From Flavobacteriaceae bacterium MAR_2010_72 (GTDB lineage: Bacteria > Bacteroidota > Bacteroidia > Flavobacteriales > Flavobacteriaceae): 64,000 nt of DNA. This document shows, piece by piece, positions 39,679 to 45,321 of the stretch (the first letter of the stretch is position 1; the number at the start of each line of letters is the position of its first letter). The stretch covers positions 744,001 through 808,000 of the forward strand of contig QXCW01000002.1 in assembly GCA_003550275.1 (NCBI GenBank). Direction: 5' to 3'. Made by a program: the position numbers and the translations under genes. Under the pieces are notes generated by a model. It was not told where the DNA came from, did not search any database, and was given only the letters and a program-made list of their open reading frames with translations.

Positions 39679-39758
39679 ATTTTAATACTAAATTTTTTAA
39701 AATACCCAATTATGTACATCCTACAAATTTGGATGGCGGTAGTTTGATTAGGGTGACT

Positions 39759-39911
39759 TTATTTTAATTCTGATTTCCAATTAAATAATGTTGCTGTTGC
39801 TTCGACCTTAATGAAGTTGTTTTTTTCGATAACTTTAAAAGACGCTGTATTCGTTTTGTCGGTTGAAGCAACAATAGATTTAAGGATATGAGGAATTATT
39901 AAAATTGTCAT
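39759..39911 (-). pseudogene. C-terminal fragment of a GNAT acetyltransferase
   Basis: A 50-residue frame ends in VASTDKTNTASFKVIEKNNF followed by IKVEATATLFNWKSELK. This is the typical last part of a GNAT N-acetyltransferase (asparagine-rich motif and EK-x-GF turn). The acetyl-CoA-binding core is missing. It is a gene remnant in a non-coding gap of about 280 nt, together with a truncated beta-barrel gene next to it. The rest of that gap shows nothing. Confidence 0.6.
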
Positions 39912-39958
39912 CCTATTTTAGGATTCAAATAATTGAAAAACAGATTGGATTCTTTATT

Positions 39959-40123
39959 TTAAAGTCCAAAATGGTATCCAAGAATATACTTTTCTCCATT
40001 TAAATCAGTTTTTAATGTGGACATGTTAACCTTTACTTTTACACCCCAATTTATTTCTTGGGCCGAAACCAATTTACAAGCCAATAATATAATGCTTGTA
40101 AGTACTAAAATTCTAATTTTCAT
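39959..40123 (-). pseudogene. Truncated outer-membrane beta-barrel (porin-family) gene
   Basis: The frame encodes MKIRILVLTSIILLACKLVS, a signal peptide ending in AQ. It is followed by the first strand of a PorT/OmpW-like barrel (INWGVKVKVNMSTLKTD) and stops at residue 54, where the family normally runs to about 200. The gene still has a full promoter (-7 at 40178-40185), a LytTR site upstream and the AATCAAAAAACGAACA leader just before its ATG. It is therefore a decayed member of a regulated group. An in-frame extension to the TTG/ATG at 40180 is less likely. Confidence 0.65.
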
Positions 40124-40125
40124 AA

Positions 40126-40141
40126 TGTTCGTTTTTTGATT
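40126..40141 (-). promoter_or_regulatory. Conserved leader copy A (AATCAAAAAACGAACA)
   Basis: This 16-nt leader, read on the minus strand, precedes the ATG at 40123 by two bases. Identical copies lie at 43566-43581 and 43739-43754. Confidence 0.6.
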
Positions 40142-40177
40142 AATGATGATGTTTACTAGAGATAATTTTATTATAAA

Positions 40178-40185
40178 CAAATATA
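40178..40185 (-). promoter_or_regulatory. -7 element of the truncated barrel gene
   Basis: TATATTTG on the minus strand is a perfect -7 element. The LytTR repeat at 40220-40249 lies 34 nt upstream. Confidence 0.6.
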
Positions 40186-40219
40186 TTTTAGTTTTTAACG
40201 AAGACTAGTTTAGAATGTA

Positions 40220-40249
40220 ATGAAAGTGTAAAATATTGATATGAAAGTG
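40220..40249 (-). promoter_or_regulatory. LytTR-type direct repeat, site A
   Basis: Two identical 9-mers ATGAAAGTG (40220-40228 and 40241-40249) are separated by exactly 12 nt (21-bp period), the classic LytTR arrangement. Relative to the downstream minus-strand gene they read CACTTTCAT twice, the same orientation as sites B and C. Confidence 0.7.
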
Positions 40250-40310
40250 ATTAAATGAAGAATTCAATTAAATAAGGATAAACTGATAAAGGTTTGTATG
40301 AAAACAACCC

Positions 40311-41060
40311 TTAACGATTGAGCCACTTTTTGAACTCACCTGACTTGTCGATGCTTACAATAACATCAAATCCGGCAGGAGGATTTAATTCCAACTTTAC
40401 GCGACTTTTAGACCAGATAATCATTTGATTAATACTATAGAAATTGACAATGATTTGCCTATTAATACGATAAAACAAATCGGGATCTAATTTATTGTCC
40501 AGATTTTCTAACGATTGGTCAAGAAGATAACGTTCATTGGTTTTTGTAACAAGCTTTACGTAACGCCCTTCAGACAAGAAATAGGCAACTTGATCCACCA
40601 AGATACTTTTTATTTTCTGTCCACTAACAACCATAAACCGTTCTTGATAGTTTTCCTTTTGTTGAAGTGTTTCCATTAGTTTTTGAAAATCGAATGGCAC
40701 TGATTCAGAGATTCTAGATTGTAACTTAGTAATAGCAGCTTCTAATTCTTCCTCGTCTATTGGCTTTAAGAGATAATCAATACTGTTTAATTTAAATGCT
40801 TTTATAGCATATTCGTTATAAGCTGTTGTAAAAATAATAGGCGTTGTAATTTGAAGCTTTTCAAAAATTGAGAAGCTCAAGTCATCTCCCAGATGAATGT
40901 CGAGAAAAATAATGTCGACCGTATGTTGTGAAAGCCATTGGATAGCATCTTTTACATTATCAATAATTTTTACAACTTCAATATTTAAATTACGGTTTTG
41001 AAGGAGAGAGTTCAAATAGTCTGATGCTAATTTTTCGTCTTCAATAATTACGGCTTTCAT
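40311..41060 (-). CDS. LytTR-family response regulator
   Basis: This 249-residue protein has an N-terminal receiver domain (phospho-acceptor D54 in IIFLDIHLGDD, acidic pair near residues 7-8) and a C-terminal LytTR DNA-binding domain (KIKSILVDQVAYFLSEGRYV, DLFYRINRQIIVNFYSINQM). LytTR proteins bind pairs of 9-bp direct repeats 21 bp apart. Three such pairs are seen close by (40220, 42914, 43458). The gene follows its histidine kinase with a 2-nt gap. Confidence 0.94.
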   Translation of the reverse strand: MKAVIIEDEKLASDYLNSLLQNRNLNIEVVKIIDNVKDAIQWLSQHTVDIIFLDIHLGDDLSFSIFEKLQITTPIIFTTAYNEYAIKAFKLNSIDYLLKPIDEEELEAAITKLQSRISESVPFDFQKLMETLQQKENYQERFMVVSGQKIKSILVDQVAYFLSEGRYVKLVTKTNERYLLDQSLENLDNKLDPDLFYRINRQIIVNFYSINQMIIWSKSRVKLELNPPAGFDVIVSIDKSGEFKKWLNR

Positions 41061-41062
41061 GA

Positions 41063-42802
41063 TTATTCTTTAATTAAAGGAAGTTTAACATAGAAAAGAT
41101 TGTTTTTAATTTCGAATGAGGGCTCTAATTCCGAAATGTATTGATAGCGTGAGGTTATGTTTTTTACGCCTGTTTTCGTCGAATCTTCTGTAACTTGTCT
41201 GGGTTGGAGATTGTTTGTTACAATTAAAAAATCTTGTGTTGCTTTAATTTTAATGTACAGTGGCGATTCTGATGTAATGGTATTATGTTTAATGGCATTT
41301 TCTATAACCATCTGCAATGAAAAGGGTGGTAAATAGTGATTTAAAAAATCAGAATCTATATTTATTTTGATGTTTAAATTAGAATCAAATCGCATTCGTT
41401 GAAGGTATAAGTAAGAATTCACATGGTCCAATTCTTCTTTTAGGGTAATGATGTTTTTTGCCTTCAATTCTAAAGTGCTTCTAAAAATTTTTGAAAACTC
41501 TTTTGTAAACTTTAAAGCTTTCTCCTTATCGGTTTTTATAAGTGAGGTAAGTGCATTCAACGAATTGAACAAAAAATGTGGACTTACCTGGGTTTTCAGT
41601 GTTTCAAATTGCACCAAAACATTTTCGCCTTCCAAAAGCTGGTTGCGTTCGGCCAATTGTATTTTTTCTAAGCGTAATAGTTCATTTGATTTTTTATTTC
41701 CTTTATAGTTTTGGTATAATACCACAATACCTGCAAAACATAATATGGTCACCAAAATGAGGATCAAAGCCCAGAATTTATTTTTCTCGACTTGAGCTGT
41801 GGCCAAATCTTTTTGGGTTTTTAATAGTTGAATTTCACTAGTTTTTAATTCGCTTTGAAATTTTTCTTCAATTTCATTATTCGATTTTACGATTTCCAAG
41901 GAGTAAAAGGAGTCTCTTAACGTAGTCAACTTTTCGTGTTGTTCTAAAGCCGCCCGATAGTTACCTTTGGCTTTATACCAATTCACTAAATGTTTATAAT
42001 AGATTTCTAAATAATAGGGGGAATTGAATTCGTGAGCAGCCTTACCACCAATATCGAGATATTTTTTTGAAAGTAGGAGCTGATTTTGATCCAAATAAAG
42101 CTCGCCAAGTGAGAGTGCCAATCCTGACAAAACATAGTCTGAATTTCCATTTCTTTGATAATCCAATCCCTTAATGTAATAAGACTCTGCCAAATCTCTA
42201 TTATTTAATTTATGGTGTGCAATGGCTATTCCATGATACATTAAGGCCATCGCATCGGGATTATCACTTTTTCGGTAATGAATCAATGCTTTTTCATAGT
42301 AATCAATACCTTCATTAAATTCACCTAACTCTGTACTGGCAGTGCCTAAATTGGCATAAATACTAATTAAAAGCTTGCGATTTTCTTTATCTGTCATTGC
42401 CAAAGTCTGTAATAAATAGTCTTTGGCCTTTTGATAATTATGTAAATGGATTTGCGAAAAGGAAATATTAAGCAGTGCAATAGCTTTTCCGGTGAGATCA
42501 TTTATAGAGTCAAACAATTTGTAAGCCTCCATTTGATGCTCTAATGCCTCCTTATTCTTTCCTAAAAAAGAAAAGGCTGTTCCTTTGGATAGGGTCAAGG
42601 AAGCATACAATTTAGTGTCATTTTTTTGCTTGGCAAGAGCTAAAAGAGAATCCGATTGCTTAATAACAAGTTCAGGATTAGTGGCACTTTTCCTCATAAA
42701 TATACCTAAACTGTCCTGGTAGCTGGAAGCTTTAACAATTTGCGCTATTGCCGAAGCTCCGAAAGCGAAAAACAAAACAAATAAAGTAGTTCTAAACCAC
42801 AT
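41063..42802 (-). CDS. TPR-containing LytS-type sensor histidine kinase
   Basis: This 579-residue kinase has a signal/anchor at the N-terminus and about seven TPR units (for example NLGTASTELGEFNEGIDYYE and YHGIAIAHHKLNNRDLAESY) in the periplasm. A coiled coil, one transmembrane helix (about residues 340-362) and a LytS-type kinase core follow. The core has LKTQVSPHFLFNSLNALTSL with the phospho-accepting His, then an N-box region near VIENAIKHN. The TPR sensor suggests it senses a protein or peptide partner. The kinase and regulator form one operon. Confidence 0.92.
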   Translation of the reverse strand: MWFRTTLFVLFFAFGASAIAQIVKASSYQDSLGIFMRKSATNPELVIKQSDSLLALAKQKNDTKLYASLTLSKGTAFSFLGKNKEALEHQMEAYKLFDSINDLTGKAIALLNISFSQIHLHNYQKAKDYLLQTLAMTDKENRKLLISIYANLGTASTELGEFNEGIDYYEKALIHYRKSDNPDAMALMYHGIAIAHHKLNNRDLAESYYIKGLDYQRNGNSDYVLSGLALSLGELYLDQNQLLLSKKYLDIGGKAAHEFNSPYYLEIYYKHLVNWYKAKGNYRAALEQHEKLTTLRDSFYSLEIVKSNNEIEEKFQSELKTSEIQLLKTQKDLATAQVEKNKFWALILILVTILCFAGIVVLYQNYKGNKKSNELLRLEKIQLAERNQLLEGENVLVQFETLKTQVSPHFLFNSLNALTSLIKTDKEKALKFTKEFSKIFRSTLELKAKNIITLKEELDHVNSYLYLQRMRFDSNLNIKINIDSDFLNHYLPPFSLQMVIENAIKHNTITSESPLYIKIKATQDFLIVTNNLQPRQVTEDSTKTGVKNITSRYQYISELEPSFEIKNNLFYVKLPLIKE

Positions 42803-42913
42803 AAAATTATTGGAGATTTGTGTTCATTTAATCGAATAAAAGTATAGTGAAAGTATCGATTTTTTTTAAATTTTTGTAATGAAAGTGAATTATTATGTAA
42901 TAAACCCTATGAT

Positions 42914-42943
42914 GATTTTCAATACAATTTAATTCACTTTCAT
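42914..42943 (+). promoter_or_regulatory. LytTR-type direct repeat, site B
   Basis: GATTTTCAA (42914-42922) and CACTTTCAT (42935-42943) are 21 bp apart. The second equals the site-A 9-mer in the same orientation toward the gene, and the first matches it at 6 of 9 positions. A perfect -7 box TAGTTTTG (42977-42984) lies 33 nt downstream. Confidence 0.6.
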
Positions 42944-42976
42944 TGCATCTTAATCGTATATCCTTGGAGTGATAAA

Positions 42977-42984
42977 TAGTTTTG
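42977..42984 (+). promoter_or_regulatory. -7 element of the small lipoprotein gene at 43007
   Basis: TAGTTTTG fits TAnnTTTG, 22 nt before the ATG at 43007. No -33 element is seen, as expected for an activator-dependent promoter. Confidence 0.55.
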
Positions 42985-43006
42985 CAGAATCATCAATAGT
43001 GCTAAC

Positions 43007-43426
43007 ATGAAAACATATCACGCTTTCGCTTTGGGCCTTATTCTAATCATGGTATTTTATTGTAATCAAAAACCAATTGACTACTATTTTGTAGAAAGAC
43101 AATCAGAGGCTATCCAAACTTACAGACAACAGGCCTATTACGAATATAGCTCCCGTTTTAATGATTCAATATGGAAAGTACTTCAAAGCTTTGATAACAA
43201 CCTCCTTAATGATGCTGCTTTTGAAACCATTAAAAATTTAAATTATAAAGTAATACAAGAGAAGCACTCGACAGGATGTTACATAATACCTTGGAGGCAT
43301 AACAAGAATATACTTCAGTATAATGACATCATCATGTTGGAATGGAATCCTAATTTTGGGGTGATTTTTAGGGTATTTACTAAGTCAGAACATATTAAAG
43401 AATTACTTCCATTCCAATCTTATTAA
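43007..43426 (+). CDS. Small probable lipoprotein of unknown function
   Basis: This 139-residue protein has a signal of the form HAFALGLILIMVFYC with a lipobox-like end (VFYC, Cys near residue 19). It then reads NQKPIDYYFVERQSEAIQTY and a compact domain rich in aromatic residues. I do not recognise a family. Its promoter carries a LytTR site and a perfect -7 element, so the adjacent kinase/regulator pair probably controls it. It is divergent from the kinase operon. Confidence 0.7.
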   Translation: MKTYHAFALGLILIMVFYCNQKPIDYYFVERQSEAIQTYRQQAYYEYSSRFNDSIWKVLQSFDNNLLNDAAFETIKNLNYKVIQEKHSTGCYIIPWRHNKNILQYNDIIMLEWNPNFGVIFRVFTKSEHIKELLPFQSY

Positions 43427-43457
43427 ATGTGCAATTAACGTATAATCAAGCTTTATA

Positions 43458-43487
43458 GCCATTCATTTCAGGTTTTTTCGCTTTCAT
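43458..43487 (+). promoter_or_regulatory. LytTR-type direct repeat, site C
   Basis: GCCATTCAT (43458-43466) and CGCTTTCAT (43479-43487) are 21 bp apart and point toward the right. A perfect -7 element TACATTTG (43521-43528) lies 33 nt downstream, exactly as at site B. Confidence 0.55.
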
Positions 43488-43520
43488 GACATTTCTAGAT
43501 AATAACCGTTGATGAGATGA

Positions 43521-43623
43521 TACATTTGTGTTGCAATAGTAAAATATCCATGCATTACAATCAAAAATCAAAAAACGAACAATCAGTTTGAGAACCCATT
43601 AGCTCATATTGAGCTAATGGTTT
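43521..43623 (+). ncRNA. Short transcript unit: promoter, conserved leader and hairpin without a gene
   Basis: A perfect -7 element (TACATTTG, 43521-43528) predicts a transcript from about 43535. It contains leader copy B (43566-43581) and then, where a start codon is expected, AATCAGTTTGAGAAC instead of ATG. It ends in a hairpin with perfect 11-bp arms CCATTAGCTCA / TGAGCTAATGG (43596-43606 and 43610-43620). It could be a roughly 90-nt small RNA, an attenuator for the gene at 43757, or a scar of a deleted gene. The T-run is weak. The remaining sequence to 43756 shows only the palindrome at 43651 and leader copy C. Confidence 0.45.
43566..43581 (+). promoter_or_regulatory. Conserved leader copy B (AATCAAAAAACGAACA)
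   Basis: Identical to the leaders at 40126 and 43739 but not followed by a start codon. Confidence 0.55.
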
Positions 43624-43650
43624 ATCATGTTTAGACTTAAAAATATATTC

Positions 43651-43664
43651 TTAATCTAGATTAA
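43651..43664. promoter_or_regulatory. Perfect palindrome TTAATCTAGATTAA upstream of the DUF5689 lipoprotein gene
   Basis: A 14-bp perfect palindrome overlaps a weak -7-like box AATATTTG (43663-43670). It could be an operator for a second start of the gene at 43757. Confidence 0.4.
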
Positions 43665-43738
43665 TATTTGCAAATTATTTTTAACGAAATGTAACAAATA
43701 ATTACAAAAACAGTCTTAATCAAACATCAAAAATTAAA

Positions 43739-43754
43739 AATCAAAAAACGAACA
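43739..43754 (+). promoter_or_regulatory. Conserved leader copy C (AATCAAAAAACGAACA)
   Basis: Two bases before the ATG at 43757. Identity to copy A extends through TT and the first ATGAAA, so leader and translation start are shared between two unrelated genes. Confidence 0.6.
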
Positions 43755-43756
43755 TT

Positions 43757-45172
43757 ATGAAATCATTTATTTTAAATCGATTACTTTTTTATTTCCTAAT
43801 TGGAACACTAATTTTCAACTGTAGTCTAGACGAAGAACCAAATCAAGGAGGTAGCACCAATTCTGCCGTTGTGTCTTTTACACAACAAAATTTTTCAGTT
43901 TTGGCAGACATGGAGACCATTATCATTCCATTAAAGCTTGAACCTAAAGCTTATAATAACGGCTTTGTGACTATAGAACTATCAGGTGAAGCTACCTATG
44001 GTACAGATTACACAACAGTTCCTGCCGCTGTCAATGGTAAAATAGTTATTGAGCAACTAGCCAACACGCAGATAACTAATTTAACAATTTCTAAAGTTAA
44101 TATGAATTTTAACGCTGAAAAAACCTTGAATTTGAAATTGAAAGATCCAACCACTGGTTTTTCAATTGGTACATTAAACACCACGATTGTCACATTCAAA
44201 ATGGCCGACCAAATTACAAACACATTAAATTTTAATGGTGTAGCTTCATCAATTTCAGAGGGCAGCAATGAGGGCTTAACTATAGAATTGAAAGCTACCA
44301 ATTCGCTCACTAATGGCGGTTCAGCTTATGTTAAACTTCAATATCCTGAAGGTAAAGTTTATGGTACTAACTTCTACACCGTTCCAGCTGCGATTATGAA
44401 TGAAATAGCACTTAATTTTAATCAAAATTCACAAAGTATGAGTTTCAAAATCATCCCAGTGGACGACAATTGGGCTTTAGATAATTACAACGTTGTATTT
44501 GAAATTATTACAGCTGGAAATATGGTCATAGGTGAAAATAAAGTATATACCGCTACTATTTTGGATAATGACCACACCACTGAAACCATAAACACCATTG
44601 CACAATTGAGGTCAAAATTTAATCAGCATCAAGGCGATTGGTATTTGCCTACAGATTATTTTATTGAAGGTGTTATAACCTCCAATGGCAATACATTGGA
44701 TAACAAAACGGTGTATATCCAAGATGCTACAGGTGGTATTTTAATACGTTTTATGATGCCAAATATTTTCAATTTAGGGGATAAGATTAGACTCAACCTA
44801 GTCAATGGATCAGGAATCACTATTAACTATCAAAAGGGTATAGATCAAGTCAGTATCAGTGGTTATGCCAAGTATGCTGAAAATGTAATTGTACAAGCCG
44901 AAGTTATCACAATACCACAATTGCTATCAGGTGATTTTGAAGGAAAGCGCGTTAAGATAGAAAATGTACACTTTGTAAATGCTGATAATGTTAGAACGTT
45001 TTTAGGAAGTCATACCATAAAACATGATAATGACGTTGCAGCAGTAGCGACCTATGAGTCGGCTGCCTTTAGCAATACAGTATTACCTCAAGGAACACTA
45101 TCCGTTACAGGAATTGTAGGAGATTGGGGCCGTGTGATGCCTCAAAAATATTCGCACGACATCACTAACTAG
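43757..45172 (+). CDS. Surface lipoprotein with Calx-beta-like repeats and DUF5689 domain
   Basis: This 471-residue lipoprotein (lipobox LIFNC, Cys near residue 22) has a short linker and two Calx-beta-like domains. Each has a YGTDYTTVPAAV / YGTNFYTVPAAI turn, in about residues 30-140 and 145-265. From residue 275 a DUF5689 OB-like domain follows (YFIEGVITSNGNTLDNKTVY, GGILIRFMMPN). DUF5689 is widespread in Bacteroidota lipoproteins, often with calcium- or ligand-binding modules. Leader copy C and the nearby LytTR site C suggest control by the neighbouring two-component system. Confidence 0.85.
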   Translation: MKSFILNRLLFYFLIGTLIFNCSLDEEPNQGGSTNSAVVSFTQQNFSVLADMETIIIPLKLEPKAYNNGFVTIELSGEATYGTDYTTVPAAVNGKIVIEQLANTQITNLTISKVNMNFNAEKTLNLKLKDPTTGFSIGTLNTTIVTFKMADQITNTLNFNGVASSISEGSNEGLTIELKATNSLTNGGSAYVKLQYPEGKVYGTNFYTVPAAIMNEIALNFNQNSQSMSFKIIPVDDNWALDNYNVVFEIITAGNMVIGENKVYTATILDNDHTTETINTIAQLRSKFNQHQGDWYLPTDYFIEGVITSNGNTLDNKTVYIQDATGGILIRFMMPNIFNLGDKIRLNLVNGSGITINYQKGIDQVSISGYAKYAENVIVQAEVITIPQLLSGDFEGKRVKIENVHFVNADNVRTFLGSHTIKHDNDVAAVATYESAAFSNTVLPQGTLSVTGIVGDWGRVMPQKYSHDITN

Positions 45173-45232
45173 TATAAATTCACCCAAGAACAGATAGGTA
45201 TAAGAATTTGTTATTGTTAGATCATAATAGAT

Positions 45233-45271
45233 AAAACCCATGGTAAAGCAACTCAATTACTATGGGTTTTT
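45233..45271 (+). terminator. Terminator after the DUF5689 lipoprotein gene
   Basis: Arms AAAACCCAT and ATGGGTTTT, extended by GTAA/TTAC with one bulged base on each side, form a long stem ending in TTTTT. Confidence 0.8.
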
Positions 45272-45321
45272 AAGTGTAGTTTTATACCTTAAAGTATTTG
45301 AGGAAACATAAACCATAATTT

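Follow-up and report, generated by a model that had tools for sequence, protein, structure and literature searches.

A probable local, autoregulated LytTR regulon of envelope-protein genes in Flavobacteriaceae bacterium MAR_2010_72

The window analysed here is a stretch of 64,000 nt from the genome of Flavobacteriaceae bacterium MAR_2010_72. It carries an operon for a kinase and a regulator, with genes for a barrel protein and for lipoproteins on either side. The kinase gene (41063..42802, - strand) encodes a 579-aa TPR sensor histidine kinase of the LytS/YpdA type (Pfam His_kinase PF06580, 83 bits, and TPR). It ends 2 nt before the start of the gene for a 249-aa response regulator with a LytTR DNA-binding domain (40311..41060, -; above the cut-off for Pfam Response_reg with 64 bits and for LytTR with 67). 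The features of a LytTR-type two-component system are found together: a regulator with receiver and LytTR domains and a LytS/YpdA-type kinase in one operon, and paired repeats before promoters. The kinase displays a signal peptide, TPRs, a membrane segment (as judged by eye) and the His_kinase domain, an architecture that would fit an envelope sensor. As for assignment to named families, the regulator stayed under the cut-off of the NCBIfam equivalogs BtsR (99 bits versus 246) and LytR (111 versus 375), and no YpdB model was found among its NCBIfam matches.

Three neighbouring genes are of interest. On the same strand as the operon lies the 54-aa remnant of a barrel gene (39959..40123, -), whose orthologues are 222-aa OMP_b-brl_2 (Pfam) proteins. 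On the other strand, a small lipoprotein-like protein of 139 aa (43007..43426, +) belongs to no Pfam or NCBIfam family; its orthologues are encoded divergently from the kinase in the MAGs UBA5534 and UBA6231. It is followed by a 471-aa DUF5689 lipoprotein (Pfam DUF5689; 43757..45172, +), which is also encoded at this locus in Mariniflexile gromovii and UBA6231. A search of five genomes placed the DUF5689 lipoprotein at the regulator locus only, save for one extra copy in the genome of MAR_2010_72 itself.

Each of these genes is preceded by a LytTR-type direct repeat with a 21-bp period, located before a perfect TAnnTTTG box. Site A (40220..40249, -), 5' of the barrel gene, reads CACTTTCAT-N12-CACTTTCAT and matches the motif at 18/18 positions. 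The -7 box of the barrel promoter, TATATTTG (40178..40185, -), lies 34 nt past it and shows no variation in an alignment of three species. In site B (42914..42943, +; GATTTTCAA-N12-CACTTTCAT) and site C (43458..43487, +; GCCATTCAT-N12-CGCTTTCAT), the downstream half is good and the upstream half matches at 6/9 positions. Both sites are followed after 33 nt by their -7 boxes, TAGTTTTG (42977..42984, +) and TACATTTG (43521..43528, +), respectively. The coordinates, strands and distances of 34, 33 and 33 nt had been given for A-C in an earlier sequence-only reading and were found exact to the base on direct reading. The three repeat pairs described there are real, but the repeat unit is longer than the proposed 9-mer: aligned across species, the half-site extends over about 14 nt (cnCTTTCATtACAwt). 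A fourth site, D, had been overlooked.

Site D (42879..42908, -) is located before the kinase/LytTR operon and associates a degenerate upstream half, AGGGTTTAT (4/9), with a perfect CACTTTCAT at a period of 21 bp. A -7-like box with one mismatch, TACTTTTA (42837..42844, -), lies 34 nt past it. With 3 mismatches to the full motif in the combined-pattern scan described below, site D is weak in MAR_2010_72 when taken alone. In the orthologous kinase promoters of UBA5534, M. gromovii and UBA6231, 33 nt separate a fully matching CACTTTCAT from a perfect box, and AATTCACTTTCATtAC stands out as a conserved block of the kinase promoters in a four-way alignment. Since the orthologous promoters carry these better copies of site D together with the conserved block, the kinase/LytTR operon is very probably autoregulated through this site. 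Sites B and D together are a divergent control region.

Orthologous loci were found in M. gromovii, UBA5534 and UBA6231, with kinases 64-68% identical to that of MAR_2010_72, and a fourth, at 41%, in a Flavobacterium MAG. The comparison of upstream regions suggested by the sequence-only reading revealed that the sites are kept before orthologous genes. A counterpart of site A precedes the full-length 222-aa barrel gene (OMP_b-brl_2) in M. gromovii and UBA5534, and a counterpart of site C precedes the DUF5689 gene in M. gromovii and UBA6231. The counterpart of site B is good in UBA6231 (TAGTTTTG at 33 nt) and poor in UBA5534. At the Flavobacterium MAG locus, two strong sites stand before genes for secreted proteins, and the scan gave no site at the kinase promoter of this 41% orthologue. 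As judged by footprinting, invariant columns make up 76, 58 and 61% of the sites versus 42, 23 and 24% of the remaining intergenic sequence.

Two side observations concern the barrel gene and its surroundings. In MAR_2010_72, the gene ends past codon 54 (39690-40123), yet no regulator site in the genome is better than the one at its promoter; the 270 bases that follow the truncated gene in this region do not match any part of the barrel. An intact barrel elsewhere in the genome was considered as a substitute and rejected, the best other match being 35% identical. In UBA5534, an extra strong site (L056:14479-14550) lies downstream of the barrel gene and a CAAX-protease-like gene, and a cytochrome c-domain gene follows within 0.4 kb.

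We further examined the specificity of the motif by counting. The single 9-mer with at most 1 mismatch occurred 29 times in the window versus 24.7 expected; its frequency being the same as in shuffles, it was rejected as evidence. The paired repeat with at most 3 mismatches was found twice in the window versus 0.14 expected, a number reached by 1 of 100 shuffles. Genome-wide, 19 such pairs were present; site A was the sole perfect one, and A and B were the only ones with a TAnnTTTG within 80 nt downstream. TTTCAT-N33-TAnnTTTG without mismatch occurred 4 times in the 3.4 Mb genome, two of these being sites B and C. A scan for the sigma-70 consensus, the wrong promoter type for Bacteroidota, gave no excess.

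A combined pattern (two TTTCATNNCA cores at 21 bp, N33 or N34, TAnnTTTG, at most 3 mismatches) was then used on five whole genomes carrying the regulator, at both spacings and with the reversed pattern as control. The regulator locus accounted for 14 of the 17 matches (4 in MAR_2010_72, 3 in UBA5534, 2 in M. gromovii, 3 in UBA6231 and 2 in the Flavobacterium MAG) compared to 0 and 2 for the reversed controls, a count that partly reflects the common ancestry of close relatives, while the four sites of MAR_2010_72 itself are mutually independent. The three off-locus matches appear chance-like, inside open frames of 185, 674 and 1000 codons. In MAR_2010_72, four of the five matches are at the locus and the fifth falls in a polyphosphate kinase-like reading frame. 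Among 494 combinations of period (14-32) and spacing (20-45) applied to the five loci, period 21 with spacing 33 or 34 gave 7 + 7 matches and every other cell at most 3. A genome-wide regulon was considered and rejected: off-locus matches were no commoner than reversed controls, and those inspected sit in long reading frames. The idea that a 21-bp repeat generally precedes LytS-type kinase genes was likewise rejected, as 29 other kinase loci and 5 loci of regulator homologues gave no excess. The genome scan that the sequence-only reading had called for restricts motif and promoter spacing to the locus, in MAR_2010_72 as in its relatives.

These counts bear directly on chance, according to which AT-rich intergenic DNA would yield look-alike repeats beside common TAnnTTTG boxes: the single 9-mer does occur at its expected frequency, and the B and C pairs are 3-4 mismatches off the motif as first described, but the whole-genome scans at both spacings and the grid of periods and spacings, with the full motif confined to the locus in five genomes, specific in spacing and kept in relatives, refute this explanation, which we regard as hardly credible and which the sequence-only reading had likewise judged hard to sustain.

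The sites could instead be genuine but occupied by another protein, for instance a different LytTR paralogue. The genome does encode several further LytS-type kinases (8 kinase matches), and similar repeats are present at LytTR loci with different regulators in two other genomes. Against this, the sites go with the orthologous regulator: they are restricted to the locus of this gene, and its own promoter is among the places where they lie. We consider another binder very improbable. Binding by the adjacent LytTR regulator is the reading to which the arrangement of the locus points.

As to the sign of regulation, the -7 box is found at -12 to -5 in Flavobacterium (PMC9723704), which places the 9-mer repeats at about -76 to -46 and the extended half-site to about -41. 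By analogy with characterised systems, this would be where LytTR activators usually sit, immediately before the promoter (PMC6193735, PMC4847170). The regulator might instead repress, or the sites might be mainly autoregulatory with silent neighbours, since sequence cannot give the sign of regulation. However, the sites stop short of the promoter, at about -46/-41, and leave the -7 box free; their position is that of activating LytTR sites, just upstream of -35 in HdrR-type systems (PMC6193735). Such a reading is thus improbable, and from the position of the sites we infer activation rather than repression.

Taken together, these results argue strongly for a strictly local, autoregulated LytTR regulon, in which a self-contained two-component pair would act on its own operon and three envelope-protein genes. 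Four repeat pairs at a fixed promoter distance, conserved and almost absent elsewhere, make it very probable that the pair switches on itself and its three neighbours. The earlier proposal of a local LytTR pair acting on the barrel gene, the lipoprotein gene at 43007 and the transcript at 43535 gains support from the confinement to the locus and the conserved sites. In the mechanism we propose, the membrane kinase, with its periplasmic TPR domain and LytS/YpdA-type kinase domain, would sense an envelope signal and phosphorylate the LytTR regulator encoded beside it; both the signal and the dependence on phosphorylation are presumed. Two regulator monomers would then occupy the two half-sites of about 14 nt, 21 bp or two helical turns apart, spanning about -76 to -41 relative to the start site, and recruit the housekeeping RNA polymerase to the TAnnTTTG promoters. 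Predicted targets are the operon itself (site D, positive feedback), the outer-membrane barrel (A), which is a truncated remnant in MAR_2010_72, the small lipoprotein (B) and the DUF5689 lipoprotein (C).

Several known systems resemble this arrangement. Like the pair described here, E. coli YpdA/YpdB associates a LytS-type kinase with a LytTR regulator, and a TTTCAT core is common to the YpdB half-site and ours. The YpdB site reportedly has a 21-nt period and an 11-nt spacer. In contrast, YpdA is not known to have a TPR domain and responds to pyruvate, the regulated transporter gene lies far away, and the promoter is of the E. coli sigma-70 type instead of one with a Bacteroidota -7 box. AgrA, ComE and VirR differ from the present regulator in half-site sequence, signals and targets. 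They are nevertheless, like ours, response regulators with a LytTR domain, and they bind pairs of direct repeats before the promoters of their targets (PMC4847170). The E. coli YpdB half-site GGCATTTCAT occurs as a direct repeat upstream of the yhjX promoter, and known LytTR sites are built from two repeats of 9-11 nt around a spacer of 11-13 nt (PMC4847170). Sites A-D, with two 9-mers and a 12-nt spacer before the predicted target promoters, display this geometry.

In LytTR regulatory systems (LRS), two 9-bp direct repeats, mostly 12 bp apart, are found at a constant distance before the operon promoter (PMC6193735). Direct repeats before the promoter of the own operon are found here with site D, weakly in MAR_2010_72, and in the orthologous kinase promoters; the probable autoregulation of the LytTR operon is likewise shared with HdrRM/BrsRM and relatives. 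In those systems, however, the regulator's partner is a membrane inhibitor protein. The present partner is a histidine kinase with a Pfam His_kinase domain instead of a transmembrane inhibitor, and the regulator itself contains a receiver domain, which sets the pair apart from HdrRM-type LRS. Porphyromonas FimS (NCBIfam HK_Porph_FimS) is, like our kinase, a TPR-containing sensor kinase from the same phylum. The match is weak (residues 123-285) and, at 56 bits versus a cut-off of 600, the kinase is not a member of this family.

The mechanism is known from YpdB, BtsR, AgrA and HdrR, while the motif and the gene set appear new. A literature search yielded hardly any LytTR binding sites reported in Bacteroidota. 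LytTR regulators are numerous in this phylum, and the locus supplies a precise motif, a spacing and a target list. Through it, an unstudied TPR sensor is also linked with genes of uncharacterised function for outer-membrane proteins and lipoproteins, including that of the DUF5689 protein. Natural transformation in Riemerella anatipestifer requires a DUF5689-domain protein (PMC8459023); for the protein of this regulon, the analogy is a lead only.

Site C was originally assigned to a transcript at 43535. What starts there is the 5' leader of the downstream DUF5689 gene, which begins at 43757 and is the predicted target of site C. This leader of about 220 nt (43535..43756, +) has the same layout in M. 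gromovii and is shorter in UBA6231. It contains a terminator- or attenuator-like hairpin (43593..43624, +) conserved in both relatives. The fold of the three sequences has 17 predicted pairs, 3 of them with changes on both sides, and single-sequence z-scores are -2.9, -5.9 and -4.3. The hairpin could act as an attenuator, terminate a short RNA or influence RNA stability; an Rfam search gave no match. A leader peptide before it (MHYNQKSKNEQSV, noticed by eye) was rejected, as it is not kept in relatives.

The lipoprotein unit (43566-45275) is duplicated at L050:6337-8046 (-), 0.52 Mb away; over 1712 bp, the two are 96.3% identical. This second unit lacks site C and lies behind a different, HMA-like small gene. 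Its boundaries, one within the 5' leader and the other at the transcription terminator, give it the look of a transcript copied without its promoter, and without site C it should have left the regulon. A leader of the AATCAAAAAACGAACA type was also considered as a mark of the regulon and rejected, being found before unrelated ABC-permease genes too. At L052:1451-16118, six MacB-like ABC permease genes follow one another, four of them after such an A-rich leader (exact or with one mismatch).

We further searched 397 genomes of the family, in which all matches with at most 1 mismatch belong to MAR_2010_72 or UBA5534. At 2 mismatches, a match in genome G016 coincides with an operon promoter, the operon encoding a LytTR regulator and two LytS-type kinases, and another, in G338, lies directly past a regulator gene aligning to ours over residues 1-214. 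Both suggest a broader use of the same code. That TTTCRTTACAT-type half-sites with a 21-bp period, 33/34 nt before TAnnTTTG, might represent a wider Flavobacteriaceae LytTR code, supplemented by RNA-level control through the DUF5689 leader hairpin, is a tentative and rather doubtful extension.

The two matches have the following context. In G016, a distant genus, TTTCGTTACATT / GTTCATTACATT stand 33 nt from TATATTTG (L131:3700-3767), before a 487-aa gene, the two LytS-type kinase genes and the LytTR regulator gene. In G338, which represents another genus, the 2-mismatch motif (L122:1501-1568) is located between the LytTR-like regulator gene and a 169-aa gene.
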